Below, one piece after another: positions 5,733-62,200 of a DNA stretch of 64,000 nucleotides (positions are counted from its first letter, which is position 1; each line of letters starts with the position of its first letter). A model generated the notes under the pieces. It had not been told where the DNA came from, did not search any database, and was given only the letters and a program-made list of their open reading frames with translations. The position numbers and the translations under genes were made by a program. Location: assembly GCA_033439295.1 (NCBI GenBank), contig JAVTLE010000008.1, positions 2,790,001 through 2,854,000 on the forward strand, in the 5' to 3' direction. Source of the stretch: Deuterostichococcus epilithicus (taxonomy: Eukaryota; Chlorophyta; Trebouxiophyceae; Prasiolales; Stichococcaceae).

Positions 5733-8700
5733 ATGGGCAGCTCAGCTCCGAAGTTGCATGATCAGGTGGTGAAATTCGCTGAAGCCATCTCAGGTGATCT
5801 CCCAGCATTGGATACAGCTCGTTATGTACTGCCTCAATGAGAATGCATCCCGTTCATCTCGGCCCGCTGTTTCCGAGGTCGTTCCTGCAAATTCTGATCC
5901 GCTGCTCCGAGGTTAGATGTGCATCTGCGCCGCCATGGGCTGAGCTTGGAGCAGTGCTACGACCCAGAGGGTTTTGCTGGAAAGGTTTTAGTGGCTTACT
6001 ATCTCGTCTGCGGCGCAGCTTGGCAGCATCGATGCAGCATGAGCCCCGCAGCAGCAGCTACGGAGGAGCAGCATCGCCAAATGGCATCTGTTGTGTTGCG
6101 GTGCAGCCATTCCTGAGGAGGAGGACCGGAGGACCGCAGCACTGGAGACCGTGCGAGCTGCCGTGGCGAGTGTATTTCCGCAATTGGCGCCCGGCGGCGG
6201 CAACGGCAGCAGCGTCAATGGAGGCGGTCGCGCGAACGGTTGTGGCGGCCGCGGCCGCGGCCCCACTGTGGGCGGCGCCGGCAGTAGCGGCGGCGCGGCA
6301 CAGCCTGGGGAACAGCGGCCCAGGACAGTGCAGGTTTGGTGTTCGTGATGATGGCTCGAGAGCGTGTCACGATCGTGCTTCGCTCATCTGCAATCGCTAT
6401 TCCAGCAGGGATTGGTCCAATTCCCACCACATGTGCAGTTGACTTTGATCGGCCTGATAGGTCAAAGTTTACCTTACAAAAATGCCACTACTAGATGCCT
6501 CGAGCACACTCGCAGTGCGCATGTCGGAAGTAGTTCGATGTGCGGCCTGCCAGTATATTGCACCTGGTCCGTGGCTGCAAGCATGTCCCATTGCATGCAA
6601 TGGCCCAACAACAGGACTGCTCGAGTACAAGTGCAGAGGCTTTCCTGCTACATTTCAGTGGTTGAAGCTGAGACGTCTATTGCAGCAGGTTGCTGTGTGG
6701 TCTTCGGCAATCGAAAGCCCAATTGGCTGAAAGTGAGCTCCGCAGCTGGGAGCACATCTCAGTCACTCAGACAGCGGCGCATGAGCTGACTGAATGTGCC
6801 TGTACGACCGCAGCAACTGCCTTCCTGCAGGCTCGCCCATCCTGCGCTTGCGCGTGCCGCTGGATGCTGCTGCGGCATACATCGAACACGCTGGATCGCC
6901 AGCCATGGGCTGCCTGCCTGCAGGCCCACTTAGTCGGCGGCTGCGCCTGCGGCCTGGCGGCTCACGACTCGACCATGGACGTCGCGGTGACTGGCCTGGC
7001 GCAGCCCGACGACCCGCGCTGCTGCGGTAGGGCAATCACACTGCACCGGCCAAGCCCCTCATTGGCGGCACCCAGCGGATGGAGAACCATGTTCTGTCAG
7101 CAGAGCTCTGACCAGTCTATCTGCCGGCCTCGCACCCCCAGCGACCGCCGCTGCTGCAGTAGCTACCCTATAAGGGCAGGGCACCTCACTACAGCGACAG
7201 AGCTCCTTCCCTGGCCCCCAGTGGAGCACTGCGTTACCTGAGCACTGCTAATGCGCTGCGGCAGAGGCTTTGACCCACCCATCTGCCGGCCTGGCGCAGT
7301 CCGGCGACCTGCGCTGCTGTGTGGGCGCCACAAACTGGTGGCCCGCCCGCTGTGAACCGTTGCATGGCAGTCTTACCCCCAGTTCCTTGAAGATGACTGC
7401 CGGATGATCGTTGGAGATAATTGGCGAAAATCATCCGCCAGCGGGTGAGCCTGCTGGTGATGTCACAGCTGGCTCGGTGGTCATAACTGGGTGGCCGGCA
7501 GCTTGTGCACCCCCCACCCCCTCCCCCCGGCCCTGGGTCCTGCCGAAGCGCAGATGGGCTTTTATGGTGTAACAGCCAGCAGCACCTGCGGTGTCACAGC
7601 ATGCTGCGCAGCTACACGACTCCTCCCGGTGTAAAATTCCCCATGTCCGTCGAGCAGCCTCTGGCACTTGCCGGCGACAGTTCTGACCAGGACGGCCCAG
7701 AGTGCAGCTGTCCGCCTGCATCCCACAGAACATACGCAGCGAGGGACATCTTCTGTCTGCATGCCGCAGGCTACACTGAGGCGACCAAGTCGAGGGTGAA
7801 CCGCCACCTCGCGGCGATTCGCGGCGCGCTGCAGGCGGCAGGGGCGTTGCGGAGCGCAGAGCACGTCCGGCGGGCGCGCATGCCCGTTTTGAAGGTTACA
7901 AACTCGTAGAACTGGCAGCTTGGACTTGAACAGAACAAATATGTAGGCTGGTATGCTCTGCCGGTTCGTTTCACTGGGTGATGAGTGCGTGGCGGCGGTC
8001 CGGTGGTGCAGCGGCAGCAATGACAACTGCAGCAACAGCGGCGGCAGCATCGCCGACAGCAGCAGCAGCAGCATCAGCGACAGCGACAGCGGCAGCGGCA
8101 GCAGCAGGCTGCGGCGACATCTCTCCTGACTGTGCCACTGCGGCGCATGCCCGAACAATCTCCTCATCATCTCATCTGTGCTTGAAACCTTTTTGCTGGC
8201 GTTGCAGTGCGTGCTGGAAGGCGGGCAGGCGGTGGAGCTATTCATCTCGGACCACAGCGGCATGCGCACGTTAGCGTGGCTGGCAGCGAAGGTAGGGCAT
8301 GCCTTTATCTCTAACACTTATTTTGCCTGCTGCTGGGGCTGCTGGACCCTTCAACATCGCGACTCTTGGAGGTAGCCCCTGAGGTCCGGTTGCAGCACTG
8401 CCGTTGCATCCGAAGCTCGAATCGGCCTTCGATGGCCTGGCTGCAGTCACGCCGCTCCAATACCGCCGCAATTGCGCGGCTTCGAGTCACATGAGGAGGC
8501 GACAGTCGGTGTCACATGCTGCCTGATTGGACTGCCACAGCCGCTGGGAGAGCGAGCCCGCTGCCGTGCAAGCCTACAGCCGAGACCACTCCCGCAGCAG
8601 CCCAAAGATACAGCAGGAAATAGGCCGGGCGTCAAAGTGACATGCTGCCCTGATCTCATGATACAGGTGGCACAATACCCGGCGCTGCCGCCGCTGGTGC

Positions 8701-11307
8701 TGGTGCTCAGGTACCTGCTGCAGGATGCGGGGTGGGGCGGGCACCACAGCGGCCTCGGCGGCTTCCTGCTGGCCAACATGGCCGCCGCCAGCCTGCAGGA
8801 AGACGAGAAGGTGCGACACTCACCAATCGTTGCATCGATGGATTGTCAAACTGAATCCACCAGTGTGGGTGGGCAGTCTCTCGGCAGCCGAGGCACTCAC
8901 TCCGCTCGCAGATTGATTGTGTTTGGTGCTCTGCCACTGTTTGCGCAAGTGCGCCGCCGCACCTGAACACTCGAATGACGTGCAAGGCGCAGGAGCAAAG
9001 GAATGCCGCGGTGGACTGCGGCGCGGCGCTGATCGCCTTCCTGGAGCGGTTTGCAGCCTTCGACCTGCGGGGTCAGGCCGTGGCGGCCGGACGCGGCGGC
9101 ATCATGCGGAAGGCGAGCTGCTTCTATCAAGAGGATGTTTTGACAGATAGCTATTGGGAAGCCACGGTTATTCTTACCGATGTCACATTTGCCGAGCATC
9201 CTGCTTGAGTGCGCCTGCACCTCTGCAGGCTGCTCGACCACGCACCGCGCCAGCTGCTCCGGGTTGAGGGTTTGGGGTTGCAATGTCGGCACCGCGGGCC
9301 AATTTGGTGTCCGAGAGGGACTGAGAGGACTGGGCATGCTTGGTGCTGGAGCACCACCGCATCAGCAGCGACGCCGCCGGTCGGCCTGCTATCGGAGCCT
9401 CGCCATGCGTGCAGCAGCGGGCGCATGCCTCAGCGGCGACGTGCTGCCGGCCCCAGTTTAGACCGTCTGACGGGTGACTGAGGAGAACATCATAGAGAGA
9501 AGTTTCAAAACCACACCGAGTCCGGTCACAGGCTGACGTCCCGGCAATGGCGCCGGTCTTCGCCCATACTGCGCGCTCCGCGGGGAGCGCGGCTGTGCCT
9601 GCGGATTCGCCAGGCCGCCTGTGTGTGGAGGACCCCATCAGCGGCAGGCGGGCAGCCGAGCCCTCATTGCCCATTGCACTGGACGATGCCGCGGCAGGCA
9701 GTACCGCAATACCACATGTCCACACCTGCTGCTGTCCCTGGAGACTGAGAAAGTTTGCCCAACAAGACAGCACCCAGACTGCAGGACAGCTCTGCTCATC
9801 GGGCTGCTGTCTGCAAGGCTTGCTGACACGCCAGGCGGCGCCACCGCACGCCGCCTGGCGGCCCGCTGCGGGCGAGCCGCCAAGTGAGGGCGAGCTGTGT
9901 TGCACTACAGTGTCGCACCTGTCGTGAAACTTACCCTCCATCGCGGTCCAGGGACATCGGCGGCAGCGCAACGCAGGCGTCGGAGATGCTGGCCCTCTTC
10001 CGCATGGCCGCAACAGACCTTGCGGCCGCGATTGCCATCGGCCGTGCCAGGCCACTGGACGTGCTGTTCGACACCGACGAGGCGCTGCGCCGCAACATGA
10101 TGACAGATACCATCGCGGCGCGCTTCTGTTGTGGGGGGCGGAGCATAATGTGGGGCGGAGCATACTGTGATCATGTTGTTGCGCTGCAGACATTGTGTGG
10201 TGTGGCTGCAGCAGACAGGCTGATGCGGCGCAGCCCCGCGGCCTGTGCGATGGCCAGACGCTGTTCAAGTGGATCGGAAACAAACGCGGTGGAGATCCCC
10301 ACCAGCGACCCTGGCAACCTACTGCCTTGCAGGCGCCGCAGTCGGACGGCACAGCACTGGCAGTTGTGGGCGGGGAGCGGCAGCAGCGGGACGGCCTGGC
10401 ATCCAACGAGCGGCAGCCGAACCCACCGCCACCGGCATTGCAGCCAGGCCTTGGCTACAGGTCTGGCGGCGCCGTCCAGCCTCCGTCGGCTTCAGCCTCG
10501 GGCGCCGCATCGCAGCCGCGGCAGCATCGGCAGTCACATGCCGGTCCGGCATATGACGAGCAGGTGCGCAAGCAAGTTCCTGAAGTGTCCTTGCTTGGTC
10601 AGCAGTAGCGGCATCACACACGTGCGCCTGCTGTAGCAGTGACCTCGAATGCGCCGACTCTCTGACTCACCTCCCTAGCTCCCCTCCCACCAATGCACCA
10701 AGTGGAATCCACATGCAAGTCTGGAATCTGCTGGTTCGATGTGCAGTGCAGCAGCACTCAGTGCAGCAGCACTCCGTCATGCAGCAAATGCGAGACGTTG
10801 AGCCTGCCGCCCGAGTCGAGATGATGGTTCACTGGTCGTGGCCCCTCATTCTGCTTCATCTTGTTTCAAAAGGCGCAGCAGATCCAGCGTGGCTGGGACG
10901 GGCTGGCCTACGTAGGACGCCAGCCGCCGCCATACTACGTGTTTGCTTCAGGGATGACAGCCGCTGCCGCTGGCCCGCCCCCACCTTCATCATCGGCAAC
11001 AACAAGACCCCAGTCAAACGTCGAATGTTGCAGCGCCAGCGGCAGCGGTGGCGCAGGAGCAAGCATGGTGCCGGCTGTGGTCGGCTCTGGCGGCGGCGGT
11101 GGCGGCAGTGGCTCTGGCGGCTGCAGGGGTATCGCCGTTGCGGACGTCTTGTCATGTGGCCGGGACAGCGGCTTTGCAGCCGCTGCCACAATTGCCGCGC
11201 TCGCACCACGCCCCGTCATCAGCGGCTCAGACACGAGCTACTGCTGTGGCCGTCGCCCCCCGGGTCCGCCGCCGGGCACGCCGCCACTGCTGCGTCAACA
11301 GCGCTGA
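5733..11307 (+). CDS. TRF4/PAPD5-like non-canonical poly(A) polymerase with degenerate active site
   Basis: Multi-exon gene of the TRAMP-type nucleotidyltransferase family, which adds short A tails to nuclear RNAs for exosome decay. Well-supported exons: 5733-5793 (ends in the helix KLHDQVVKFAEAIS), 6107-6333 (PEEEDRRTAALETV, then a Gly-rich insert), 6924-7026 (nucleotidyltransferase motif), 7770-7894 (ARMPVLK), 8208-8291, 8667-8810 (YPALPPLVLVLRYLLQ), 8994 to about 9130, a segment ending at 9647 (RLCVEDPISG), and 9953 to about 10130 (DIGGSATQASEM). Phases join cleanly at most junctions. A Gln/Pro/Gly-rich tail follows at about 10.33-10.61 and 10.86-11.31 kb. In the GS..TG(L)..(S)D.D motif the sequence reads GGCACGLAAHDSTMD, so the first Asp is Thr. 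The later catalytic Asp aligns with Glu (VELFISDHSG). The PAP-associated domain is well kept. True start, C-terminal exon borders and the join before 6924 are uncertain; 9647/9953 fits a GC-AG intron. It may be a non-catalytic paralogue. Confidence 0.8.
7124..7323 (+). repeat. Two diverged intronic copies of the preceding exon edge
   Basis: The exon end plus donor at 6993-7027 is echoed at 7288-7322 with about 30 of 35 positions identical, and more weakly at about 7124-7157. Both copies share a CTGCCGGCCT lead-in. They lie inside the large intron of the TRF4-like gene. Confidence 0.65.
8010..8107 (+). repeat. GCAGCA/GCGGCA-type microsatellite in intron
   Basis: Imperfect trinucleotide and hexanucleotide GCA/GCG/ACA units within the intron between exons ending 7894 and starting 8208. 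Confidence 0.7.
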
Positions 11308-12581
11308 GTGGCATAGCAGTCTGCGCTGACGGGCGCCCCTTTTTCATGACCTTGTTATCGAGCTGGCTGCGAAGTTTCGGACGTGGTATACATGGCGTCA
11401 GCAAGGGAGTCAAGATGTCGTCGCTGCATCGGTCAGCTGGGCATAGATGGCGATGTTCCAGCAAACCTGCATCGCGTGACCAACTGCAGCGATCAAATCT
11501 GCAACCGATCGCATTCTCATGCGCGGAAGTCAAGCCGCCACATCACCATGTGCCTGAAGGCTGTGGCATCCTGATGCTGGCAATATGCGACATCCTTCAA
11601 CGATTGTCGCCAGTGCCCACCTGACGCAAGAGTGCAGTTCGTTGGCGACGCAAGTAACTTTTGCATTTCATGCCAGGCTCAACGAAGCATTTGCAAATAG
11701 CAGGGGGTTAGCAAGAAAGCTGAGATAGTGAGGGTGCGGCGGCAAGCGGCGGAAATAATGCTGTCTTTGTCGTTGCTTCCACGGTATCCCATCGAACCAT
11801 CCCAGGCTCGCTCAGCGAAGCATCAACATCAAGAACATGGTGGAAGGATAGCAACAAAGCTGAAATTGCGAGGTTGGGCCGGCATGCAAGCGGCAGAAAT
11901 GTACTGTATTCTGCAAGTAGTATAGTCAAGCCGCTGGGCCAAGGGTCCAAGCTGGGTCGCCGAGTGCGCAAGGGCTGGTACTATAACTTATATGCAGACC
12001 ACTGATGACCCTGAGCAATAGCCACAATTGGCGTCAAGGGTAGCAGTGCTCGACGGGGCGGCAGGACAACCGTGATAGCGAGCGCCGCCGCCGCCGCGAA
12101 GCAAGCGACGCGCCGGGCCAGCGCTCGGCGTAGGGGCAAGCCCCTGCCGCAACCTCCGTCAGCGAACCGCACACGCAGCGTAGGTGCATAATGTCAGGCC
12201 CCCCGCAGGTCGCGGGAGCGCGCACCACAAGAGCACAAAGGACAGTATGTGGGACCCAATGCCATTCAAATCAATAACAACAAGACCGCAACAAGCAAAC
12301 CGCATGCATTTTGATCCTCTCGTATTACTTTGACGGCGCCCCGACAGCACCCACTCCTTCTATTTCTGCCTTTCTTGGCGCCCTTGGGGACACTACCACC
12401 CAACTTGGGCGCACTACCACCCAAGAGCGACACCAGGCCGTAATGCCCGGTGCCGATCAATGCTACACAAAGGCTGTGTGAATCTGACGCACCCATGCAT
12501 GAATTAATTGACACGCGGAGAATTCGCACTTTGAACTTGCTACAATTTCGAACTTTGAATGTCCAGATCCCACCGTGGATG
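11308..12581. other. Intergenic region with a direct repeat, no gene seen
   Basis: No convincing coding signal between the end of the TRF4-like gene and the tRNA. The region holds the degenerate direct repeat annotated separately, and a short 13-bp direct repeat CACTACCACCCAA at 12391-12403 and 12412-12424. Confidence 0.45.
11707..11900. repeat. Degenerate direct repeat pair about 140 bp apart
   Basis: The roughly 50-bp segment 11707-11756 recurs at about 11847-11900. Shared blocks include AAAGCTGA and AAGCGGC(A/G)GAAAT. It is intergenic and of unknown origin. Confidence 0.6.
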
Positions 12582-12692: not shown

Positions 12693-12706
12693 AGTGATGG
12701 ACGGCC

Positions 12707-12710
12707 TTTT
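12707..12710 (+). terminator. RNA polymerase III terminator (TTTT)
   Basis: Four T residues on the coding strand 15 bases after the tRNA 3' end, the expected pol III stop signal. Confidence 0.65.
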
Positions 12711-18600: not shown

Positions 18601-18649
18601 GAGAGTGCCAACGACGCTGTTGCACGTCGTCACCGCAGGGCAATTCCAG

Positions 18650-24060: not shown

Positions 24061-24095
24061 CGCTCCCCTAGCCTGCAATTGACAGCGGCGGTGGC

Positions 24096-26448
24096 ATGCA
24101 ACGTGGGCTTTCGTCCCAAATGCAGCACCAGCCGCAGTGCACGCGGCACGGGCCAATACCTCAACGGGCGGCCTCCACCAGGCAAGGCCGATACCGCAAG
24201 CAGCGGCGTTCAGCTCACATGCAAGCGCCAGGACGGTCGGTGACAGCCACCGCGGCAACGCCCAGCGACCGATCCAGTGGCACCGCCAGTCACCCGGATC
24301 CTTTGGCAGGTCAGCTTCTTGCTCTGCTAGTCCTGAAGCGTACAGACGTCAGGCATTGCTGCATGGAGCCTGCCCTGGGCAGTGTGGCAAACAATTGGCA
24401 TCCAGGGACAACCCAATGCAGATTCAACACGGGCGCCAGTGGGAGGACTGCTCAGGGGGCGCAGGGCGGGCACGGCGTTGAGCATTCAGTTCAAGAGGCC
24501 TTCTCGCGGCGATGCGAATGTGCATGCCACCATCAATCTTTGGGTGCCTCTGCAGATGTCTCGGAGATGCCGCTGTGGGGCCGCCGCATCATGGTGACCG
24601 GCCCACGGCAGTATGCCGCCAAGCTGGCGGGGCTGCTGTTGGCGGCGGGCGCCCGGCCGGTGTGGCTGCCGACCATCGCCATCCGCCGACTGACCGACGC
24701 AGCCCTCTTGCAGGTCAGCACAGGCTTGCAATACGGCAGTACTGCCAGTGGAGGCGCCCCATGAATACCTCCCACCTCCTCTGGACAGCTTGCCAAGTAG
24801 GTGCTGGCTCATCCCTGCAATATCCCTGAAAGCCCGACTTGGCCGACCTGCAGGCGACCAGGGCCTAGCGGTCGTGTGATTGTGTTTGCGGGTCTGATGC
24901 AGAGCCGTGCGGACGCGGGCCTTGCCAGAGACACTCGCGCAGATTGAGCCCAAACCCCTCGTGGCTGCCGCAGGAGCTGGATGCCGTTCTGGCGGAGCTG
25001 CCTTCCTTCTCGCACATCGCCTTCACCTCCCGCAACGGCATCCAGGCGGTGCTTGCACGCCTCGCGGCGATACACGACAGCAGCGGCAGTGGCGACTGCG
25101 GCAGCAAAAGTGGGGGCACCGCTGCAGCTGCAGATGCACTGAACCAGGTAGCTGTGTGGGCGCTGGGCGCGGACGGCGCGGCGCTGCGAGACGCGGGCGT
25201 GCAGGACGTCCACATGCCTGACGAGGTGCCAGACTGCATGACACCAACGCACACGCACGCTTGCAGCCTGTCTCGCTCCGCAGGATCCGGAAGCTTGCGA
25301 CATCTGTTGCTGAAGGTGCCTGCGAGAGGCAGCTGTGTGCCTGCGCTGATCACAAGATGGGCACGTTGGGTCCTCTGCAGGTTGGCGGGTAGCCTGTGCC
25401 ATGCTGTGGTGCATGGCAGAAGCGCTGGCCACACTCGAGCAGCGCCCATGCTCCCTGCGTGCAACGACGTTTCGTGCGCGTGTCCTGCAGTCCAGCACGC
25501 AGGGTTTGGTGAGGGAGCTGACCCGGCGCGGCGAGGCAAAAGGCGCACGCGTGCTGTGCCCAGTGCCGCTGGTGGCGGCGCCGCTGCAGGAGCCGCCCGT
25601 CGTGCCCAGGTGGGGTTTTGACAGGCGTGTAAAGGGCAGCCTCACGCTGACTCAGCTCCTGTTAATTCCCGCCTCAGATGTTGCTTGCTGCGTGGCGCTC
25701 TTGATGCTTTTTATGTCCCTGCATTCGAGATCTCCTGTTTCCGAGGGCTGCAACCACGAAAGGCTCGCAAAACCCTAAATCCGGCGCAGGTTCCTGGCGG
25801 CGCTGCGGGCTGCGGGCGCGGATGCGGTCCGCGTGCCGGCGTACGTGACCGAGCTGGGCGTCGGCCAGACGGACTGCCTGGCGGAGCGGCAGCTGCTGGA
25901 GCACGGGAACATCCGGGCCATTGCGTTCAGCAGCACCGCGGAGGTGGGCTTGGCAGGGACCTTGAGCTTTGAGGGGCCCTTCACATTGCTCAAACGGACT
26001 GCCTGGCGGAGCATCGCCTGCCGGAGCACAGGAACGTTGCGGCCATCACCCCCAGCGGCATCGCAGAGGTGGGTTGTCAGGTTTCAGCGGCAGTTTTCGG
26101 ATGGGTTCCGAGGCCTGTCGCATAGCGATTTCAGGGGCTGCGGGCTGCGGGATCGTCCAGCAGGACTCCGCACGGCGACGCACCAGACACGCGACAGGCT
26201 GCAATGTGATTCCTTGTGGGCTTCGCTGCTGCCTGCAGGCGCAGGGTCTGCTGCAGGCCATGGGCGGCGATCGCGGCCAACTGGCCGACATGCTGCGGGC
26301 ACAGGACGTGCTGCTCGCAGCGCATGGGCCGTACACCGCGGCCGGGGTCGCCGACACGCTGGGCCTGGAGGTGGAGTGCGTCTCCAAGGACTTTTCTTCC
26401 TTCGACGGCCTGGTGGCAGCGCTGGCGCATCACTGGGCGGCGCCGTGA
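24096..26448 (+). CDS. hemD: Uroporphyrinogen-III synthase, plastid-targeted
   Basis: Closes and inverts ring D of hydroxymethylbilane to give uroporphyrinogen III, the branch point to chlorophyll, heme and siroheme. Six exons join in phase: 24096-24309, 24556-24713, 24974-25225, 25491-25609, 25790-25943 and 26239-26448, giving 368 residues. Exon 1 is a basic Ser/Arg/Gln-rich leader (MQRGLSSQMQ) fitting a chloroplast transit peptide. The HemD fold is shown by RRIMVTGPRQYAAKLAGLL at the start of domain 1, FSHIAFTSRNGIQAVL, the second-domain segments STQGLVRELTRRG and RAIAFSSTAE, and the C-terminal HGPYTAAGVADTLGLEV. All introns are GT-AG. Intron 5 holds an 83-bp diverged copy of the end of exon 5. 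The short distance to the DUF2256 frame upstream is notable. The family is sequence-divergent in general, but the order of motifs is convincing. Confidence 0.85.
25986..26068 (+). repeat. Diverged copy of hemD exon 5 end inside intron 5
   Basis: Aligns without gaps to 25868-25950, including the GAG/GTGGG donor context, at roughly 80 percent identity and 118 bp offset. It remains open in the coding frame (TDCLAEHRLPEHRNV) but lacks an AG acceptor immediately upstream. Confidence 0.75.
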
Positions 26449-32253: not shown

Positions 32254-35200
32254 GTGAGTCAGTGTGATGGTGTTACGGGAGAACATTGAGGGATGAAGGA
32301 GGGTCTTTCTGAGGGTACTGCACGTCACTGTTCGGCACACTTTGCAGCTCGCGATTGCAATTAGCAGGGAGGCTCCGACAGGTGTGGCTGCCTTGCAACA
32401 ACTGAATGCATGAAGAATCGACATGGTGAGTAGCCCTCGAAAGCAAGAATCCATGGTCAGCGACTGGGCCAGCAGCAGGGCCAGAGCAGCGCAAGGCTCA
32501 TATAGTGGGTGCACTGTCTGCAATTGAGATCAGCCTACCAGCAGCTGGCCGCAAAGCTTGCCATTGACGGGCTGCACTCCAGTCGGCGCCTGTGCAAGGG
32601 GCTGCTGAGGTGCAACGCGGCAAATTGGGCTCCACCTCGTCCGCTGCTGGCTTCTGCACGATGGTCACTCTGGCCTCCGTTCGAGATCGCCTTTGCTCAT
32701 CTGTCCCGCTGCCTGAAGTAGGCGTGCAGCAATCTGCGCTTGCATACGCTCGCATGTCGCTCGCTGGCTCTGGCTTTCCGAGCTCGGTCTGGACCTGGAC
32801 GGTGGTCCGGAAACGGCGGCGGCCACCCAACGTTGCTCAACATGCACGACATAAATCTTATGACCCCTTCTGAAAGACTCAATTGTGATATCGCCCTGCT
32901 CTCGATGCGCAGACCTTCAAGCGCGGGCTGGACCTGGACATCATTCTCGAGACGCTGCTGGCCAGCTACACCGGCGTCGAGCCGCAGCAGCGGTTCCGCC
33001 GCGCTTCTGCTGCCTCCTTGGCAGGTCAGCCATCAACATTTCTGCTCTCGCTGCCTCTCAGAGACTTGCTGAGAAGGGCAATTCCAGCAGCTGCTGCAGA
33101 GGACTTGTTGGTTGCTGCAGCGGTGCCTTTGGCAGCTAGCCGTGGGGCGCACACAATGCACAGGATATACTGAGGTTCTCCTCCTGCAGCCGAGGACGAC
33201 GGCGGCTACGGCCGGGTGCTGGGCGCCATCATGGACCTCATGGGCGTGTACCTGGAGGAAGCGCTGGACGAGCCGCCTAAGGAGTTCACCGCCCAGACGT
33301 CGTTCATGGATGCGGGGTTCGACTCCCTCGACCTGCTCAAGGTTCAAGTCTCTCCGCTAGTATCATCCGTCTGACCTGTAGGTCAATGACCAGCAGTGTC
33401 AGGTGGACTCTGGTGGCCGCAAGTCAGCGGATCACGCATGTGGCGCCGGCCCCCTCATGGCGGCTGCTGCTGGCGCTCTGCATGTCGCCCTGGCGTGGAG
33501 CGTGGGCTGTTGGGGTCGGAGCAACTGCTGGCGAAACACTAGGGTTCAGCCCTTCGGTGGTACCTTTGCAGATGCCTTGAGCTGTTTGTCCTCATCAAGG
33601 CAGTGCAGGAACACCGTGGGAACGCTACCGTTTTCGGAAACTCGAATGGTATCCCAGTACCAATGGCAGAGGCCTGGCACTGGGCGTCCGTCGAGTCTAT
33701 GTAAACGTCAGAGTACAATGAATCCATTGACCTGTCCGGATTCAGCTTTCGTGAGGGCCCGGACGACGAGCTGAGACATATCTCGTGCCGTGCTGGGACT
33801 CCTGGGGGCTGGAACTGCGCCAGCGTCAGACCGGTTCAGTTGCCAGGGGCCGGCAGCAGAGTGATGCCTGACCAGCGGCTGTGCGCGGCATGCGCAGATG
33901 GTGACGCTGGTTGGTAGCGAGGTAGGCATGGCGCTGGTGTCCAAGTAACCACACCCACGGGTCTGTCAACGTTATTTGCTGTGCAAACTAGCGTTTTCAC
34001 TTCCACTTGGTGCGCAGATGGTGACGCTGATAGGCACGGAGGTTGGCATGGCGCTGCCGACAACCGCGCTGTTCGATTACCCCTCTGCGGAGGCGCTCGC
34101 CTACTTCATCGCATCCGCACAGGTGCGAACCTGGTGCCCACCAGCCGACTCGGCATGTCCTGCCGAGGCCCTGTCCGAGAGGAAACTAGCGTCTCTGTGT
34201 GTACTGTGTGTCTGTTGTCCAGATGTCAGGCCTGCGGGTTTGCTGGCTGCCGCCTTCGCACAGACTCCCTTCTGCTATGTCACGCTGCAGTCGACGGCGG
34301 TGGCCATGCAAAACAACACAGCAGTCAGCGCCTGCGTGCGGCGCCGGTATGTGCAGCAGCCGGCCCCCTATGATCGTCAAACATCTTCGAAGTAGGGTGT
34401 CTGGACTGAATGACAGCTCAAACATTTCCCATGCACGCTGCAGCTTGTGGCAAGCGGCGGCGCGGCACGGCGCGGCAGTGTGACCACCTCGCAGACCGGA
34501 TCCTCTGTGGACGGCCTGGCTCGGCGGACACTGGGCGAGGCGCGGCGCGGCTCCTTGTGGGCCACCCTGGGGCGGTCCGACCCGCTGCTGCCAGACGGCC
34601 GCCGCCGCTCGGTGGCCGGCACCGCAGGGTGGGCCAGGAAATGAAAGCATTTCCTTGTCAGAACGCTCTTGTCATTGTGCCATGTACTGTATGGCTTGAC
34701 CTGAGAAGGGCTGCCATGTGTTGCGCCTCGCAGCCGCCGCATGTCCAGTGCGGCCGGCTTGCACAGTCTCCTGAATCCGGGCAGCGCCCGCGTCACGTCC
34801 TCCTCCATCCCGGAGCCCTTGGCGCTGCTCGACTCGCGGCGGCCGTCCGTCGTCGACGGCTTTCGGCGGGCGCTGGGTGGCGCCCTCTTACCAGGTGCGG
34901 GTTGCAGTGGCCGAAACCGCTGCAAATTCAACCGCTTGGAGCCTGCCACCACGGACTGCCCTGAATGAGTGATGGCCGCACAGCTACCCACTGGGTACTG
35001 CAAGTGACCCTCTGGCGACAGCAGCGCGATACCTCGTTGGGCACCTAGGTCACTCTTACCGCACCAGCTGCAAGCTGGCACGACATTCGGCACAGTCACT
35101 GAAGGTTGAAGTTACAAGGCATGCAGAAGCAATATGCTGCTGCGGTCTGCATCAACAGAGAGAGCGCTGCATGTGCAATCCACGAACCACAGCATAGAGG

Positions 35201-38200
35201 CCTTCTGATGCTGCCAGCGGGTCCGATGCAGACGACTCTAAGCCATTGACGTAGCCCTATATCTCATTATAATATATATATTGTGTCTGGAGACCCCTGT
35301 CTATGGAAATCATATATGAGCTCGGCTGTGTTCTTGTCACTGGGTGACCCGAGGCGCAGGCGCGCGGCGGCAGTCGCAGACGGCGGCGATGATGAGGCGC
35401 GGCAGCCTTGTGGGAGTACCGTTCGGCGCGCGGCGCGGCTCCGTGCTGCTGGATGGCCGTCAGGCGGTCACCGCACTGCAGGTGACATCCGATACAGTGT
35501 CCTGTTTCGTTCACGAACTTCATCCCTCTTTGTTTGCCTCTTGTCTTTACAGCACTAGACAACCCTCAGGATCAGGATGAGCCGCAGGATGTCGTGTCGT
35601 TGTGTGGTGTTGCTGGGCGGAGTGCTGCACTGCTGCGGACGCAGCCAGGGGCACACCATGCGGCTGGGTTAGAGCGAAACCAACCCAAACACTGCAGGAG
35701 CCCCCTCGCCCATTTAGTGCGCGTGTGACACGCCACAACTTCAGTATTGCATCAGTGGCGCAGCCGCCCGCCTGCACCTGCTCCTCCAAGCCTGTTCAGC
35801 TCTTTCACATACACACAGAGACCATGCTGCAGCAAGTAGGAATCAGGACCATTTCTGCTACCAATCCGATCATGACACCCTGCACGAGCTCGACAGCACA
35901 TGAGCACCTCGACACGAAAGCGACGACCGATCTGCGCGCCCAAGTCACAGGTGGTGGTCGCTGAGGCGGCTGTTGTGCGCATGGCGGGGCAAACCGCTGC
36001 GCCCGGCGGCGTCGCTGCCTTCCAGCATGACATGCCGCGCGCGGTGCCGCTGGCGCGATGGGACGCGGACGCGGCGGCGCTCCAGAAGCACGGCGTCCGC
36101 TTCTCCGGCTTCCTGGACGGTGAGGCATCCCTCTTGCCGTGCGGAACACGGGCCTCGCTGTTGGCAATCCTGGCGTCTGTCATCTAAGAACATGCGAATG
36201 CTTTTGCGCTTGGCATGTGATGCAGCCAGCTGCGGACCCGCCTGGACTGTTGGCACTCCGAAAACAAGTGGCCTCGGTGCCTGGAGATGGACATCAGGAG
36301 GGACCAGGTTGCAAAGTCAGTACAATCCGAGCTAGTGCATGTCGGTCAGCCAGTGCCTATTCATGGTCATATGTCTTCGATGATGGTTTGCGCAGACAAG
36401 CATTCCTCACAGCGCCGGCTACCCATGGTGTTGGCGCTGGTGAGGTCCTTGAAGTCTACCCCGACCACCCACAGCACTTCAAGATGTCAAAAATTCGGCA
36501 GTGGCTGCTGGCTCATCATAGAGGAACGATTAATGAAATCTGTTTGAAATCTGTCGATCTTGTCAGCCAAGCAGAGAAATCCCATCTGCTCACCCGCAGG
36601 TGTCGACGCCTTTGATGCTGGTCTGTTTGGCGTCTCCGCCGCGGAGGCAACCTTTCTGGACCCGCAGCAGCGGCTTCTGTTGGAGGCGGCGCACGTGGCG
36701 CTGTCGGCGTCAGGGCTGCGGCTGCAGCAGGGCTTCAGCGGCGCGGGCACTGACATCTCGGTCGCCGGCCCTAAGGCGCCGAATGCCAGGTGCTCAGATG
36801 GCTTTCTCGCAAAGATGTGCTGGACAAAGGGTGAAGGGCAAGAAACGTGTGGTTCCTTTGCACGACACACGTTAGAGGATCGTGAGATTACAACTGGCTT
36901 CAGCCGAGTCAAACTGTTGGCCCATACGAGCTGGGCGCTCGAGCTTTCCTCTGAACTGCCCATCGCATGACCGTCTGCGGACTGCCTGCCCGCCCAGGCC
37001 GCTGCAGCGCAGCGCCGCCGCCAACTGCGGCGTGTACATCGGCATATCCTACAACGAGTACATCGGACTGGCTGGTGCGGCGGCAGGCGTGTCCACCTAC
37101 ACCGCCACCGGCGGCAGCCTTTCCGTCGCTGCAGGTCAGGCAGCGCCTTCGGACCCTTTGAAAGGCTTTCGTGTGGGATTTGCGATTCCTTGTGCGATGT
37201 TGAGTGGGCCACGTAATGGCGTGACTTGGCGTGTGTCCACGGAAACCGCAGCCGCAGCATTGCCGCGTTTGCCGAGGCTGACTTGGTGATCCAGGGCTTG
37301 TCCTTGCCATTATGGGTCCTTCAGAACCTCAAAATCCGGAACAAACTATTATTGCGGAACCCGGCCTGCGCTGGTGTGTATGCGGTCTGGTGTGCTTTGC
37401 CTCTTGTGTTCGGCTCTGATGCCATACCTCGATCAGAAAAATCGGCAGCCCGCCAGCACATCAGCACATTGGCTCATCAGGGCACCCGCTGCATCTGCAT
37501 GCTGGGCTGTAACCAAGAGCGCATGCCAATGACCGGCCTGACGTCGGCCTGGCAATGATCAGCTGTCCATCGCAGGGCGCCTGTCCTGGCTGCAGGGGCT
37601 CAACGGCCAGTCTAGCGGCGCTCTGGTTTGCCACCTCAGGCATGGTGGCACATCCGAGCTCAGACCAGTCCTTCCTTTCACTGCAGGGCGCCTATCCTAC
37701 CTGTACGGCTTGAACGGCCCGTCCATCGCCATCGACACCGCCTGCTCCTCATCCCTGGTGGCGGTGAGCACCGCCCGCAACAGCCTGCTGCTGGGCGTGG
37801 CGGGCGGTGCGCTCGCCGGCGGCATCACGCTGCTGCTCAGCCCCACCACCATGGCGATGTATGCAGTGGCAGGTGCGGGACCGGGCTTGCGGCTTTGGCA
37901 CCCTGAAATACCTACAGTGCTCAGTCTTGTGCCTGCAGCATGAGGGCCAGCGAGCAGACCTCGGCGCCTGTCAATGGTGTCATCCCTGCCAACTGCCGCT
38001 TGGATGGCAAAGCCATTCCACAGGCATCTGGAATGGCTGAGCTCACCCAATGGCAGTCAGTCAGGAATTCCCATCAAAACCCGCGCCCACATAGCCTGCA
38101 TTGGTGCCATGCACAACAGATCGAGCCATGTTCTTCAGTCGTAAACCTCTTGCTCCTCTAGTATTCAGGGAGTAAGAAGCAGTTTGCCGACTGAATTCGA

Positions 38201-41200
38201 CCATGCATTTATAAGGCTTTCCTGTACAAGTTCCAACAGGGTTTGCTCTCCATGTGGCTGATGTCTGCCTTGCATGGAACCCTCCGACCAGGCATGCTGG
38301 CAGTGGACGGCCGGTGCAAGACCGTGGACGCCGGCGCCGACGGCTACATGCGATCCGAGGGACTCGGCCTGGTGGCGCTGCGCTGCTTGTCCTCCCTGGA
38401 TCCAGAAGCAGGAAGCGGCGGAGGCAATGGATGCGCTGGAAGCACCGGCAGCTGCGGCGGCCACATCCTGGTGTCCGGCTCGGCGGTCAATCAGGACGGC
38501 CGGTCCAGCGGCCTGACGGCGCCAAACGGACCCAGCCAGCAGAACCTCATCCGAACGGCGCTGGCAAACGCACACCTGCCGGCACACATGGTGCGTTCCT
38601 GGTTCTGCTTGAGCCTGTGGACCAGGCCTCGCCAGTCGGCAGGCCACAGTCTTCTGCATCACGCCTGTTCTCGTGGCAATCTGGGCATCCAGCCCCCAAT
38701 CTTGGCATTTACTCAACCTGCCGCGGTGCCGGCGCATGTTTCGTTGGCGACAACATCTTTTCACAGCCACAGCCACAGGGCTGTGGCTGTGGCTGTGCAA
38801 TTTTGAGGGTCTCCAAGGGCAGCATGTTCTCTGGCCCTGCGGCGGCCGTGCATGCATCAAAGTGCCACAACAAGCACGAGGCCTCTGTTCGTTGTCATGC
38901 TCCGGGCTTCGCACCAACGTTCCAACGTGCAGTGTTGCCATTTCTTGCCCGTCCCCGGCCCTTCGCAGCAGCTCCACACAAACACCAAGCAGATGCTAGA
39001 TCTAGTGATAAGATCAGGGCCCTAGGGACTGTTGTCGTGTGGTTGTGTGGAACTGCAAGGGTTTTACAGGCGCAAGCTTGCGAAAAAAAAATCTGTCCTG
39101 CAGGTGGGCACGCTTCAGATGCACGGCACCGGCACGCCGCTGGGCGACCCCATCGAGGTGAACGCGGCGCTGGCAGCACTGCTTCCAGCATCTGGCGCTG
39201 CCCGGGAGCAAACGCCCCTGGTGCTGGCGGCGGCAAAGTCGGCGGCGGGCCACGCTGAGGCGGCCGCCGGCATGGTCGGTTTTGCGGCGGCGGCGCTGGC
39301 GGTGGAGGGATGCAATCACCCGGGCATCCTGCACCTGAGGTACGAGCTCACGACTGAAACAAAGTGATACAAGGTGTACTGGTATATACATCTTTGACCG
39401 ACAAAACACTGTATTGCTGCAGCACCTAGAGTTAGTGCCTGCGGCTGATGTGGCCACTGGGTTTGTCCTCCCCATCATGCCTTTCTTGAGCCTCCGACTT
39501 GTTCAAAGAGGAGCCTTGAGCCTTCACAAACTATATATGTGTAAGACCCACTGTACTCTGCCAGCTCCTCTCAAGAGTTGCCCCCGTGCCCACGCCTGCA
39601 GGTCCATCAACCCGCACATCACGCCGACCCTGGACGCTTTCCGCCGCCGCCCCACCCGCGCGTCGTCAGCTAGTGGAGACACACGGCTCGGCGGCCTGGC
39701 AACGTATGCACCGCGGCAAGGCGGCGCGACGCCGGCGGCCGGCTGCGGCGACCGCTCAGTGTTGGGCATCAGCTCCTTTGCTTTCCAGGTCAGGGACTGA
39801 TGCACGAGCTCGTTCGTACTTTGTATCATGTAACGGAGCGTCAGACCCTGTACACCTGCCAGATGGAGGAACAGCCAGCCCCTGCCTGATATCCACAAAG
39901 CCCGATGGCCGAGCAGCGGGAGACCAGGAGAGCGAGGCAAAAAATTCTTTGCTGCACGGGATTGTCCACTTGCGCAACCCCGCATGCTCGGAGATCGCTG
40001 TCACAAATCCAGTCCACAGAGCTGGGCTCCGGGCAGGGCCATGCCACCGACTGCGCAGCCCGGCGCGCAGGGACAGTGGCTATGCCCCCGTACCTGGGTG
40101 GCACCCGCCATCCAATGTGCGACGGATGGTCGACTGTTCCTGCGTTTGGCCATGATGGTCGGTGGCATGCCTCGCAGCTTGCATCCAGTAGGCCAGTTTG
40201 TGCACAAAATCAGGCGCGAGACTCATGTCAGCTGGGTCTCCGGCAGGGCACCAACGCCTATGTCACCCTGGTGACGGCCGGCGTCGAATGCATCAAGCAG
40301 GGCCACCAGACTGTGTTTGTAATCGAGCTTGCGACTCATGTCAGCTAAATTGCCCGCAGGGCACCAACGCCCACGTCACCCTGGAGACGGCCGGCGTCGA
40401 CTTCGACGCTTCCGCATTCGCCGGGCGGCCCTTCGTCTGGCGGCGGGCGGCGTTTTGGTTCGCACCGGCGCCGCACACGCTGCAGCGCCAGGGCGTTGCT
40501 GTGCTGGCAGGTTCGCTGGTGTATACAGGCGGTGCACCGGTCACCCTGCTACTGCCGGGTGTCCAGGGCGCTGCTGGTGGCCTCGTTGCTGGGGCTAAAC
40601 TGTAACCTTTAAGGCCTTGCGGCGGTTTCTATGTAGCCATGCAAACTCAGGCGGTCAGGCGCGGCTCACCTGCTGCTGCCGCGCGGCTCCTGCGACTGTG
40701 TTTCCCTGTTTGTGGCCGCAGCGTGTGCACATATGAGACGCGGTGTGTGCGCCGTGCGTCGCATCGCTCGCACAATCATGTTTGTCTGTCCAGCTTTCCA
40801 GGCGTGCCAGCTGCAGTGGATCGTAAGGCATTGATGAGACGATTTGGAGAATGGGTATGCGCAGCCACTCACATGGGGCTGCAAGCTGCCCATGCTCGAG
40901 TTTACCTGGCGCCCCTGCTGACCTCTGCTATGCGCCAAGCCGTGCCGGGCCTCTTTGTCACGGCGAGGGTCACAGCGAGGGTTGCTAGACAACGTAGCCA
41001 AGCTGGCAAAGTGTTCGCACAAGAGAAACCCGATATTAATGATGAGCCTGATTCTCGATGCGGCCTAGAGCAATGGCCTCCCTGCTGCAGGCATGCTGCT
41101 GCGCTGGGAGGCCTGCGTTGGCGGCTGTGCTGGCACGGCGGTCCTGATCGACTGCCGGCGCAATGGCGGTGCGTTGCTGCCACCGGCGGCGGGCCTGGAG

Positions 41201-56200: not shown

Positions 56201-59200
56201 CGCGGCGCGGTGCCCTTGCGGAAGCATGGCCGCCAGGGTGGGCGCCCAAATCAAGCAGGGGTGTTGATACTCTCGGGATAGCCCTCTTTAGGGCGTGGCC
56301 AAACACATTACCCGGCACATGGCACATGGCTAAGATGACTATTGTGGAGTGCGCTGGCCCCACAGTGCCGCTTGCATCAAGCCCTGGTCCTGGCTCCCAT
56401 AAGCAGCTGACGGCACGTGATATTCCAGCCAAGCCACCTGGGAAGTGCCAATTTCCTACTGGACTTGGTTGTTGTCATTTGCGAGCACTTCTGTGCGGAA
56501 GCCTTGACCGAGCCGGCCATGTACCGCATGCTGCCATAACAGTGTATCGGGGGCCAATTTGCTTGCGCATGTCATGTTGCACATGGAAGGCGCATTGCAT
56601 GGTGACCGCATGCAGACAGGAGGTCAGTAGGTGAATGCACTGAAAGTTCAATCGGTACTACAGGGCCTCCAACATCGTTTGTCTTGGGCGCACTGGTCGT
56701 GGCGCCTGTGTCAGCGGCCTTACGGCAGCTGGAAGCTGCGACGGCTGTGTGCAGCTGGAGTTCCGAGCGGCTGACATCGCGGCGGCAGCTGACCTTGAGC
56801 AGGCGACTGGATCCAGCATGCAGGTGGGGTTACACACTCGCCTAGAAACTCTCTGCACAAAGTTCCTCCTCAGCAGAGCCGACGCTTTCCCAGCAGCGCC
56901 TCCTGCTGTGTGTCTGGCAGTGCTTGAACGCCGCACCTTGTAAGGCCCATCGACCAGGTGAAAGGGGCATCCAACTGCCCTGAATGATTGATGTCACCTG
57001 AATGCTGCCAACTCGCAGGCCAGCAAGCCATTGCAGACGGTGCTGCACGCCGGCGGCGCAATTGCCGATGCGCTGGTGCCCCGGCAGACGGCCGCCAGCG
57101 CCCGCGCCGCCGTTGCCGCCAAGGCCGCCGGCGCCGCGCATCTGGTCGGGCTGACGGCGGCAGCGCCGCTCGACAGCCTGCAGCTGTTTTCGTCCGTTTC
57201 CGGGACGCTGGGCAACGCCGGGCAGGCCAACTACGCGGCAGCAAATGCTGCGCTGGACAGCATGGCTTCCGATCTCCAGGTACGACTCCCTGTGGCGGGT
57301 GATCTCCACTGCATCCGCGCCGCAGCCGGCGCCCACAAGACGAGCGTGTGCAGTGGTCGTTGCTGGACAGATGCAGTGTCACTTTTCCCACAAGGAGTCG
57401 GTGCGTCTGTCGCTCTTTGGATACAGACTGGACAGGCAGCCTCGTGATGCTGACACTCCGGCTGACTACAGCTGGCGATGCCGGCCTTTGGCTGAGTTCT
57501 GTCGCTGATGCTGGCCTTCGGCTGAGTCCTGACGGTGATGCTCATAATTTCGGCTGAGTCCTGCTGGTGACGACCATCGGCAGGCGGCAGGGCGAGCTGC
57601 CATCAGCCTGGCGTGGGGCCCCTGGGGCGGCGCCGGCATGGCCGCAGCCGACCCCGGCCTGACTCTACGCCTGCGGCGTCAAGGTACTGCATCGCGAATC
57701 CTGGGCAGCAGCATGCGCACATACTCACTCAGGGTCATGCCAAACGTGCAACACATGCAATTCACAGATGCTGGCTTAGCCTGGGGCAGCGTTGTGAGTC
57801 GCAGTGCGCTTTCCGCATGCTGATCCTTGCAAGCCAGGCGCTTTCATGTGCGAGGCATAATGCCCACGCATTGAAAAGGCAGTGCTGGTGATGATCAGGG
57901 TGCAATGCACAGTGCAGCTTAGAAAACGTCTAGAAAAATGCCGAAACTTGTGAAATTGTCTAGTCTTTAAATAGCAGAACATTTGATTCTGTGTATTCAG
58001 CCTGCGCTCAGGCTTCGAGACGCTTGAGCCCGGACAGGGGCTGGCCATCCTCGCGGCTGCGCTGCAGCCCGCTTCCGCCTTCCCGCCTGCCGCGGCGGCC
58101 AGCCCGCTGCTCTGGGGCGCCCTGCTCAGGCCGCACGGAGCCCGCGCCGGCAGCCGCATGTACCTGGAGTTCGGTTCCCCGCCGCAGCCGCAGCCATCGG
58201 GCGCACAGCAGCCGGCGCTGCGGCCGCAGCCTGCACAGCGGCAGCAGGGCGCCAGTGCGGCAGTGCAGGCAGAGAGGAGCAGCGACAGCAGGATGCAGGG
58301 GGAGGCGGCCGTGCGGGCGCAGCTGCTGGCGCTCATGCGCGGCATCGTCGGCGCCGAAATCTCCCCGGATCAGCCGCTGATGGAGGTGCTGCCGTTTGCA
58401 CAAAGCTCACTGGAAGCTCAGTGTAAGCTCGGTTGGTGGGCAGTCTCGCGGCCGCAATATGTCTGGTCGCACCCGAGTTGCTGTCTGCGCAAGTTGCAGA
58501 TGCTTGATGGTGCTGCAAGGAGAGAGCATGGTGGCGGCCCATGTTGCGAGTCCATGGCATACCCGTCATTTTGCTGCAGCGCGCAGGACCTTGCTGATCG
58601 CAAGTATTGTCGTGGGTGCGCAGGCTGGGCTGGACTCGCTCGGGGCGGTCGACCTGCGCAACGCCATCGCCGCCGCCTTTGGCATGAACCTGCCGGCCAC
58701 TGCGGCTTTTGACTACCCGACAGCTGCCGCCCTGGGCGACCACATACTCAAGGAAGCCGCGCCGCCATCTGCGGTCGCAGAGGAGCAGCGGCGGCCGTCA
58801 GGAACATTCTCGGATCGCTCGGAATGGGACGACGACCAATCAGGCGGCTCCTGGGACGGCCAGGAGGCAGCGGCGGCCGCGGCGACGGAGGCAGGAAGCG
58901 GCAAAAGCAGCCGCGGCGGGATGTCGGAAGCGGAGGTGCTGGCTGGCGTGCGGTCAGCGGTGGCGGAGGTGCTCGGAGCATCCTGCGTCGGCGATGACGG
59001 GCCATTGATGGAGGTGGTTCCAGCAGCAGTTGCAGCATCCTGCTTCCAAAAGTGCCTGCAGCATCCTGCTTGAGCTGCGCATGCTGCGGCAACATCTCAT
59101 CCAGGTCATGTTATTGAGGGCTGGCATTGCAAGGTGAGTGACTCTTGAGCGCGTCTGCACGGGGCACGCTGCAAGGGTGTGGTCACTGAGCTAGATCAGC

Positions 59201-62200
59201 CCGACCGAAGCTGGTCACCTTGTGTACCAGTCCCCTTCCGGCCTGCCGCCACCATAGGCAATTCTACACTCTGCCTTGGCCCTGCTAGCCGCAGTCCAGC
59301 CTCGCTCTGGCCAACTGGAAGCGCTTGCACTTCCTGTCTTCAGTGTAAAGTGTGAACTTGCAGGCAGGGCTCGACTCGCTGGGGGCGGTGGACCTTCGCA
59401 ATGACCTCGCGGCGCGGTTCCAGACCGACGAGCTGCCGGCGACGCTGGCATTCGACCACCCCACCGTCGCCGCGCTCGCGCGGCTGCTGCTGTCGCTGCG
59501 GGGGCAGCAGGGCGGCTCGCGGGCGGACGCAGGGCCGCGGCGGCGTCGGCGTCAGGGGCCGCAGGCCGCCCTGGAAGCGGGGACCGCCAACAGGAAGGAG
59601 CGGCGCCGCGGCCGCTGCGAGGTCGTCAGCGCAGCCGGCGTGTACCCCAGCACCGGGCGAGGTGCCCCATCCTGAAAGTCCGACTGGCCTTCAAAAATCT
59701 TGCTGGCGTGTCTGCCTTCACCTACAGCAGTCCCTGGTGTGGCAGCGCGGTCATGCGGACCCGAAGCTGGAACAGGTGCTGCAATTGGTCCAGGGTCTCG
59801 GAAGTCTCGCTGCTGCTTGCACGCATTGATGTCGCCTTGTCGTGGCAGCAGGCGTTGCCGGCTTCTGGGCTGCGATGCGCGGGGGCGGGACGCTGCAGTC
59901 GCCGGTGCCACATGAGCGCTGGGACCTGGACGCTGTGTATGCGACGGAAGCGGAGCCTGGCAAAAGCTATGCGCGCTTCGGCGCCTTCATCCAGGTGATC
60001 TCATGTAGTAACCTTTCTTCCTGCTGGATTCGGTGTGAAAGATGCAACATTGCCGAGGATGGAGTGGCAATCTGTTTAACATACCTGCTATGTCCAATCT
60101 GGAAAAATCATCTGCAAACTCCGCCCTATTCAAGAACACTGTGCACAACGACCACAGTTGTGACATGCTGCTGCATCGTCAGGGCACAAAGCGACTCTGA
60201 AGGGTGTCCTCGCCCCCTGAGGCGCTGTTGTGAGCTGAAGTTGTGGCTGACGAGACGGCCGCACGCTACTCCAACTAGGTGCCGACGCGCACCGCCACAT
60301 GACTCGGACCAGTGGAGCATTGCTCTCAGACGGAACCACGGCATTGCAGGGGGCGGAGCTGCACGATGCTGCCTACTTCCGGCTGGCTGGCCACGAGGCG
60401 CTGGCGCTGGACCCGCAGACGCGCCTGCTGCTGGAGGCTACTGCCGAGGTGGGTCGCAGGTTCAGGGTTCAGGAACCTACACCCTAACACCAGAGGGCCT
60501 GCTGCAGCCGCTCAGTGAGTCAGCTTTCTCAGGCGGGATGCCTGGTGCTGCTGGAAGCGGCTGCCGCGGTGGGACCTCAAAAGCGGACCATATTGCTGGG
60601 TGCGCCAGGCGGGTGAACTCAGGTGCTCGTGCTCACATCAGGCTGGGCGGCTTTCCTGAAGCGCTTGGCGCTGCCAAATGCAGCACGTCCAGCAGGCACG
60701 GTCTGTGGCAACAAGCCCGGTCTGTGGCGGAAGCCGAAGGAGCATTCTTGCTGCTATCTGCAGCCCAGCACCAAATAGGCAACAGCTGGCCTGTCTGGCA
60801 AAGGTACAGGTGTCAGCATACAGGACGAAGACAGATAGCGCAATTCATGCAACCCAAAGCGTATGCTTACGCCTGCAGGCCCTGGCAGACGGCGCCGCAT
60901 TCGGGCTGGGGCCGGCGACTGCGGCGCGCACTGGCACCTACGTCGGCTGCATGTTCACGGACTACATGGCGCTCGTGCGCATTGGTCACGGGCGCCACCA
61001 CAGCGGCGCGCTGATGACGGGTATGTAAATTTGCTGTGATCTTAGTCCTGTGAGTGACTAGGCTTGCATGCAGAGGCGCGGTCGCCGCCATGCCGGCGAA
61101 TTCACGACAAACGGGCAAGTTCATGACGAATGAGCGTCGTAGTCCGAGCTGATATTTGAATCGACACGAGGGCGGATGTAGTAGCGAATCACAGCGGCTT
61201 GGTCAGAAGTACTCGCACTGATGACGAACCGATGTGTGGGAATTGGTGTGCCCTGCTTGACACCAGTTCAAGTCACGCCTCGAAGGCGCACCTCAGGCAG
61301 CAGCCGTGGCTCCGGCATGCAGGCACACACTGCAATCGTCTTATGTTTGCAGTGTGCGATGCAGTCGTTGTCACTGCTGTTGCTTGCCGCTGCATTATGC
61401 CCAGTGTCAGACCACTAGGAATGTCAATCAGGTGGATGTCGGGGCCCGCTGCGCTTTCTGGCAGCATTTGCCGTGCAGCGCGGGCGCAGGGCCGCCATGC
61501 AGGGCGGCGGCTTTGCGTGCGTTCATGCGCTGAAGGCTTCTGCAATGGCATTGATTTACAAAATCATTCCCAAATTTAATTGTCGCACCTACCGCAGGCG
61601 TGCGTGGCGTCGTCTCAGAGCGGCCACATGACACATCCTGACACCCCAACTCCTGACCCTCAGGCTGCAGCGCCCCTGCCACGGCAACGGCAAGTCACAT
61701 GACTGATCTGAGGTGTGCACCTGGCACAGGCGTGGGCGCGCCGTACCAGGGTGGCCGCGTGGCGTACGCCTTCGGGCTGCAGGGACCCTGCCACGGCATC
61801 GACACCGCCTGCTCCTCCTCCCTGGTCGCCACGCACGCCGCAGCCGCAGGTGAGCCGGCTCGTAGGCGCACACCAGCTCATTGTCGACCCCCTGTCAGGA
61901 GCACACTGTCGCAGTGCTGCCGGAATGGGTTCAGCTGCACACCGGCGCTGCAGATCATCATATAGCCAATCAGCGGCGCCCAAGCCGCTGACGCAGGTGA
62001 GCCGATTACTTGAGGTCCTGGGGGTTCGGTGCAAGCATGCATCGTAGCTGACTGAACGGGCTCTGAGGCTCTGCCACGGCGCTGATGAGGATTTGCAGCC
62101 ATTGGGAGCTGCATGCTCGGCGTGTGCATCCTTGAGTGGCTGCAAAGCATGTCCAGTGCCGACCCTGCCTCACCTGCGCTGGCGTGCTCAACCCACAAGC

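Follow-up and report, generated by a model that had tools for sequence, protein, structure and literature searches.

In the alga Deuterostichococcus epilithicus, the borders of many exons recur as worn copies inside the adjacent intron, most often about 115 bp away. We found these copies, here named exon-edge echoes, to be real and genome-wide in the sampled loci; the exon is the parent copy and the echo is non-coding debris. Their origin may lie in short tandem duplications across existing splice junctions, by which introns would have grown. The echoes were noticed in a window of 64,000 nucleotides (the whole stretch analysed, positions 2,790,001 to 2,854,000 of contig JAVTLE010000008.1, assembly GCA_033439295.1, forward strand), for which a first-pass annotation had described six cases and proposed intron gain by tandem duplication of about 110–120 bp. 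The data comprise this 64-kb window and 24 other sampled 10-kb loci (304 kb) from the 46.8-Mb genome of 21 contigs; L003, L008, L013, L021, and L025 denote sampled loci outside the window.

When the edge of each predicted exon (up to 80 nt) was compared with its own intron flank, 41 of 868 edges reached a score of at least 16, versus 2.0 per set of 868 edges in a swapped-flank control, in which an edge is compared with the flank of another edge (three sets). With the window left aside, this score is reached by 34 of the 693 edges in the 24 loci, 10 of them at 105–125 bp and 19 at 90–130 bp. A scan of all offsets in 16 of the sampled 10-kb loci yielded 182 matches with a score of at least 18, versus 2.2 per shuffle, with a local offset peak near 100–125 bp besides the usual short periods. 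Chance and base composition are ruled out by the shuffles together with the swapped-flank control. The enrichment is a property of exon borders, as the first-pass annotation had supposed: the 105–125 bp range holds 17 exon/non-exon pairs versus 2 non-exon/non-exon pairs, the “non-exon” class including exons missed by the gene finder. Echoes are present in 15 of the 25 sources (window and 24 loci) and recur in unrelated genes, and about 8% of the confidently predicted exons (35/450) bear a visible one.

The exon edges come from a purpose-built two-strand gene finder trained on the window and the 24 loci, and are predictions made without an RNA check; the finder converged on the donor CAG/GTGMG and the acceptor YGCAG/G. 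Exons of at least 50 nt with a score of at least 8 were counted (n = 450, giving 868 intron-flanked edges), shorter or lower-scoring ones being left out. Echoes were sought on the same strand only, and low-complexity matches (self-similarity of at least 0.62 at periods 1–18) were removed from the pair scans. A pair-based list, restricted to distances of 60–330 bp, started from 47 alignments and holds, once duplicate rows are removed, 42 echoes belonging to 39 edges; it is a count separate from the edge scan (41/868).

The distance from an edge to its nearest echo has a median of 119 bp (interquartile range 101–140), with 24 of 39 edges at 90–130 bp and 32 at 75–160 bp, in agreement with the narrow offset first described. 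Inclusion of the splice junction in the copies is likewise borne out, 35 of the 42 echoes reaching to within 3 nt of it. The offset does not depend on how long the visible copy is (r = 0.06, n = 35) and thus behaves as the length of a duplicated unit. Indeed, longer distances correspond in several cases to second units (271 = 143 + 128, 270 = 141 + 129, 321 = 161 + 160, 236 = 113 + 123, and 174 = 83 + 91 bp; a 295-bp distance in the window has a middle copy at about 133 bp), and three-copy arrays occur at one and two units, with homologous spacers in three of the eight arrays examined. The exon 9658–9796 of L003, by direct reading, has worn copies of both its ends. Acceptor-side echoes number 27 and donor-side ones 15 in the window and the 24 loci. 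Most copies show differences of 15–31% on the exon side (10th–90th percentile), which makes an assembly error unlikely. Repeats of other kinds are also present in the sampled loci: a non-coding array of tandem units, each about 73–78 bp long (L021, 8295–8860), one and the same pair of 29-base repeats 187 bp apart that occurs twice in L013 (1956 and 9750), perhaps a dispersed repeat, and a non-coding duplication of about 158 bp that is up to 92% identical (L025, 4266–4565) and among the most similar outside exons.

Within the window, all six echoes of the first-pass annotation are real and align at or near the positions given there. A coordinate-blind scan, run over every offset between 20 and 1500 bp, finds the six again among 25 non-low-complexity matches with a score of at least 19, a score reached by no match in one local dinucleotide shuffle of the window. 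Two of the six descriptions had to be amended. The hemD offset, set at 118 bp, becomes 125–124 bp in a gapped alignment, and the 295-bp copy of the exon putatively named TRF4-like in that annotation, itself correct, turns out to be a second-order echo, with a middle copy about 133 bp away (7126–7162); the intron parts of the copies in this array are similar as well. In the alignment, distance, and flank tables, the automatic alignment misplaces the TRF4-like donor entry, having taken the intron part of the array. The echo in the third ketoacyl-synthase (KS) module, KS3, is the weakest of the six (28 bp, 24 matches). Three further echoes were found, with offsets of 88–94 bp (position 6806, weak), 112 bp (61657), and 147 bp (61974). 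The copies in the window, all on the forward (+) strand, are as follows.

6806..6868 (+): weaker echo of the start of exon 6924–7026 (exon-side copy 6894–6962), offset 88–94 bp; alignment.
6993..7024 (+): exon-end copy of the predicted exon 6924–7026 (TRF4-like); alignment, blind scan, and gene model.
7126..7162 (+): first echo of the end of exon 6924–7026, about 133 bp downstream; 31 of 39 columns identical.
7288..7319 (+): second echo of the end of exon 6924–7026, 295 bp downstream; alignment and blind scan.
25866..25957 (+): hemD exon end (exon 25790–25943) with 14 bp of intron; alignment; Pfam HEM4, E 0.002, below the cut-off.
25991..26081 (+): intronic echo of the hemD exon end, offset 125–124 bp, junction to next exon 170 bp; alignment and distance table.
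33891..33936 (+): echo of the ACP exon start in the upstream intron, offset 120 bp; blind scan and alignment.
34011..34056 (+): ACP exon start (exon 34018–34122) with 7 bp of intron; motif and context, 35-residue exon with no Pfam match.
37572..37649 (+): echo of a KS1 exon start, offset 111–113 bp; blind scan and alignment.
37683..37762 (+): KS1 exon start (exon 37687–37872); alignment; Pfam ketoacyl-synt, 7.3e-17.
40193..40287 (+): echo of a KS1 exon start including 54 bp of intron, offset 113 bp; exon part 38/41 and intron part 36/54 identical.
40306..40400 (+): KS1 exon start (predicted exon 40360–40510) with 54 bp of intron; alignment; the exon alone has no Pfam match.
60426..60453 (+): KS3 exon end (exon 60350–60448) with 5 bp of intron; alignment; Pfam ketoacyl-synt, 19.0 bits with a cut-off of 20.8.
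60546..60573 (+): echo of the KS3 exon end, offset 120 bp; alignment and blind scan.
61657..61692 (+): echo of 61769–61804 in the predicted exon 61730–61849 (KS3), offset 112 bp; blind scan and alignment.
61974..62004 (+): echo of 61827–61857, at the opposite end of exon 61730–61849, offset 147 bp; blind scan and alignment.

Pfam recognizes uroporphyrinogen-III synthase (HEM4) in two of the four hemD exons given, both below the cut-off, and ketoacyl synthase in four of the five KS exons given, one below the cut-off; it gave no match for the ACP exon or for the echo-bearing KS1 exon 40360–40510. The first pass of the gene finder called the hemD echo an exon, and echoes of this kind are therefore a trap for gene prediction. 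Elsewhere in the window, two similar long exons (193–1248 and 3181–4112, +) resemble tandem gene copies, which we take to be mTERF-like. In the genome at large, a large contig carries a RuBisCO small subunit gene interrupted by an intron, its closest solved relatives being small-subunit chains that are presumably those of Chlamydomonas; this gene is in keeping with a green alga.

The first-pass view that echoes often stay in frame does not hold overall. Among the 39 echoes with an exon part of at least 30 nt, 25 are disrupted, by an in-frame stop in 5 and by a gap not divisible by three in 23, and the nearest-echo distances spread over the three frames as 11/12/16. Exon–echo differences by codon position amount to 19.4, 18.4, and 26.3% (all 47 alignment rows, repeats included), and 57 of 78 gaps are 1–2 nt long; these values fit one freely decaying and one constrained copy. 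A non-coding copy near its parent exon with disabling changes, as found here, is what characterizes a pseudogenic exon. Exon–exon repeats at 60–300 bp, many of which are compositional protein repeats, keep the frame in 29 of 32 cases, and the contrast with exon–intron pairs is expected if unspliced duplications are purged. A 99-bp in-frame duplication, of the echo size class and 90% identical over 84 bp, was also observed within a predicted exon (L025, 9321–9503). The spread over frames and the proportion of disrupted copies exclude protein repeats and mutually exclusive or alternative coding exons. A copy of spliced mRNA was also rejected: the sequence past the echo junction matches the neighboring exon at 17.0 of 40 positions, compared with 16.5 after shuffling (n = 33).

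The proposal that tandem duplication of about 110–120 bp served here as a route of intron gain stands in its observational part, namely the recurrent copies, the included junction, and the unit-like offset, and falls in its conclusion. An intron gained in this way would equal one unit, so that the echo is expected to abut the opposite splice site. Of the 42 echoes, 3 have no confident neighboring exon; among the 39 testable ones, none lies within 15 bp of that site, and the median distance is 300 bp. The direct signature of gain over 312 introns is at control level, with at least 20 of 35 matches in 3 introns versus 2.4. Echo-bearing introns are longer, with a median of 440 bp (n = 25) versus 241 bp (n = 287), it being understood that longer introns also give more room for matches; the position of echoes inside longer introns fits growth of existing introns. 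A hint of gain comes from the stretch 33190–63691 of the window, predicted to encode a type I polyketide synthase with three ketoacyl-synthase modules and five ACP-like stretches that differ in intron positions. Compared by eye on predicted exons, the echo-bearing KS1 intron (SVAA/GRLSY) has no counterpart at the corresponding site of KS2, and the echo-bearing ACP1 intron (SLDLLK/MVT) has none, also by eye, in three further ACPs of this synthase; introns in the vicinity of these sites are present in KS3 and in the last ACP. By this comparison, introns were either gained or lost between modules of the synthase. As a general cause of the echoes, intron gain by tandem duplication is refuted here, and we find it hardly credible in that role.

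The reading that we favor is one of duplication in place. Short tandem duplications would straddle existing splice junctions, the initiating event being conceivably a by-product of break repair; the copy still contiguous with the exon body would stay in use, while the other, with its duplicate splice site, would be left in the intron, spliced out, and free to decay without coding constraint. Each such event would lengthen the intron, and two copies may expand to three. Exon-edge duplicates could outlive intron-only ones, since a collapsed pair would leave decayed sequence within the exon, and homogenization or exchange templated by the exon may keep the shared core similar as the flanks fade. 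Tandem duplication is supported by the 41 of 868 edges versus 2.0 in the control, by the narrow distance that is independent of copy length, and by the triple arrays. The complete reading, with duplication across existing junctions, loss of intron-only duplicates, survival of exon-edge ones, and perhaps exchange between exon and echo, has in our judgment about an even chance of being correct.

Several results weigh against it. Past the junction, intron flanks match at 18.2 of 40 positions (n = 25), where detection-matched simulations give 27.8 (standard deviation 1.13) or 27.6 (standard deviation 1.18), with 0 of 2000 as low, and random pairs give 17.5 (standard deviation 5.8); for the 20 echoes at a distance below 180 bp, the five second-unit ones being left out, the mean is 19.6. 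Spacers failed to align in five of the eight three-copy arrays, and the aligned core covers a mean of 59% of the distance, reaching at least 80% in 8 of 35 cases. Intron-only duplications at 60–180 bp amount to 8 events, of which 5 lie apart from any exon echo, for 33 exon-edge events that would predict 30–36 with fitted ages or 46–52 at a constant rate. The simulations assume that exon positions evolve at 10–15 and 60–70% of the neutral rate and rest on predicted exons. Adding insertions and deletions of 15–100 bp to the constant-rate simulations mends neither the flank deficit nor the count deficit, and turnover by larger insertions and deletions at a constant event rate was thus rejected as the cause of the flank loss and of the few intron-only pairs, an old burst lying outside these simulations. 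The contrast among the youngest pairs is weaker and the least model-dependent, with about 7 exon-edge pairs (identity of at least 0.86) and 5 intron-only ones (at least 0.82), the simulated ratio of intron-only to exon-edge pairs at young ages being 1.4–2.3.

Either the exon holds or homogenizes such copies, or the copying is itself exon-directed. The second option, for example through local template switching, is the main rival: 30–110 bp of exon edge and a few intron bases would be copied into the intron with the flank left unduplicated. The chance level of the average intron-flank match and the paucity of intron-only duplications suit it, as do the sharp edges of the most similar case, exon 9658–9796 of L003, in which 39 of 41 bases are identical at the point where the local alignment ends and the next 40 flank bases match at 24, slightly above random. 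Its difficulty is that the distance fails to grow with copy length, as insertion at a set site would give, and that some of the arrays and pairs show clear spacer or flank homology (the TRF4-like array, L008, and the KS1 echo at 40193); no process is known to us by which exon borders would be recognized in DNA, which counts against it, and we hold it to be unlikely. Rather unlikely as well, in our view, is a scheme in which a process tied to exon borders would repeatedly place a copy of the exon end in the intron, at about 115 bp, the exon would keep the copy similar by local exchange or copying, and introns would grow outward as worn arrays.

Plain neutral short tandem duplication at any genomic site, under which exon edges would be conspicuous solely for having one conserved copy, fails because flank homology stops near the junction and intron-only events are too few. 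The 30–36 such events that it predicts, versus the 8 found, and the flank test (0/2000), with which additional insertions and deletions are of no help, make it quite improbable, even with due weight given to the intron-only duplications that do exist in the same range (8 events, 60–180 bp searched), to the 99-bp in-frame exonic duplication at 9321 in L025, and to the conserved exon copy, which does prolong detection; the young pairs alone (about 7 exon-edge and 5 intron-only) are less at odds with it. Functional echoes, that is, decoy or alternative exon ends under selection at the RNA level, could be suggested by cores that diverge less than flanks and by the GT or AG retained in many copies. 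Such a role is very improbable, as there is neither coding constraint nor frame preference and splice-site bases are, by eye, not retained more often than other bases of the core. A shared inserted element was rejected: one spacer and one intron stretch searched genome-wide (very common words skipped) match only themselves. Spacer–spacer similarity among 25 spacers is at control level.

Introner elements, which exist as many near-identical copies throughout a genome, are a known case of many algal introns affected by one process. The echoes share with them the action of one process on many introns and differ in that the two stretches searched match only themselves in this alga. Because intron sequence fades fast, intron growth is hard to observe; here the conserved exon serves as a reference by which intronic duplications can be recognized and roughly dated, at thousands of sites if the sample holds genome-wide. 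Models of repair or recombination face testable demands here, as they would have to yield both the preferred unit near 115 bp and the lack of homology between intron flanks. A literature search, most subscription papers being outside its reach, found no description of exon-edge echoes in algae, and the main text of the Coccomyxa genome paper, supplements lying outside the search, does not contain “pseudo-exon”, “pseudoexon”, or “repeated exon” in the part available. Three features seem to set these echoes apart: how often they occur, their preference for a distance near 115 bp, and the end of homology close to the splice junction.

The closest counterparts are the pseudogenic exons of mammals, where, as far as the accessible text goes, disabled exon copies occur in 0.4–1.0% of genes, about 55% being near full exon length and about 12–22% lying on the opposite strand (Morais and Harrison 2009, PMC2718932). 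Decayed copies near the parent exon, frameshifts, stops, and decay-type codon changes are common to both systems; unlike the mammalian copies as described in those sections, those of the alga, scanned on the same strand, affect 35 of 450 predicted exons, represent part of an exon end, and lie for the most part some 115 bp away (PMC2718932). The algal frequency of about 8% of exons is far above that mammalian one, the two counts being made differently (PMC2718932, same portion). For the initiating event, a parallel is offered by break repair with Pol alpha-primase and CST, which, in the available portion of the report, generates small tandem duplications in cells of mouse and human origin, the overhangs measuring about 43–50 bp (PMC8355091). 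These duplications resemble ours in being homology-independent, tens of bases long, and of a length set by the start of fill-in; they differ in stemming from mammalian cells, and that portion describes no test in algae and does not concern any disappearance of homology from intron flanks (PMC8355091). In potato, according to the part of the 2016 report at hand, a short tandem duplication across an intron–exon border made a new spliced intron (PMC4974935). The crossing of a border by a short tandem duplication is shared with the alga, and the same potato gene also has an 83-bp intronic tandem duplication; unlike that new intron, so far as this text describes it, the geometry in the alga indicates the growth of existing introns (PMC4974935).

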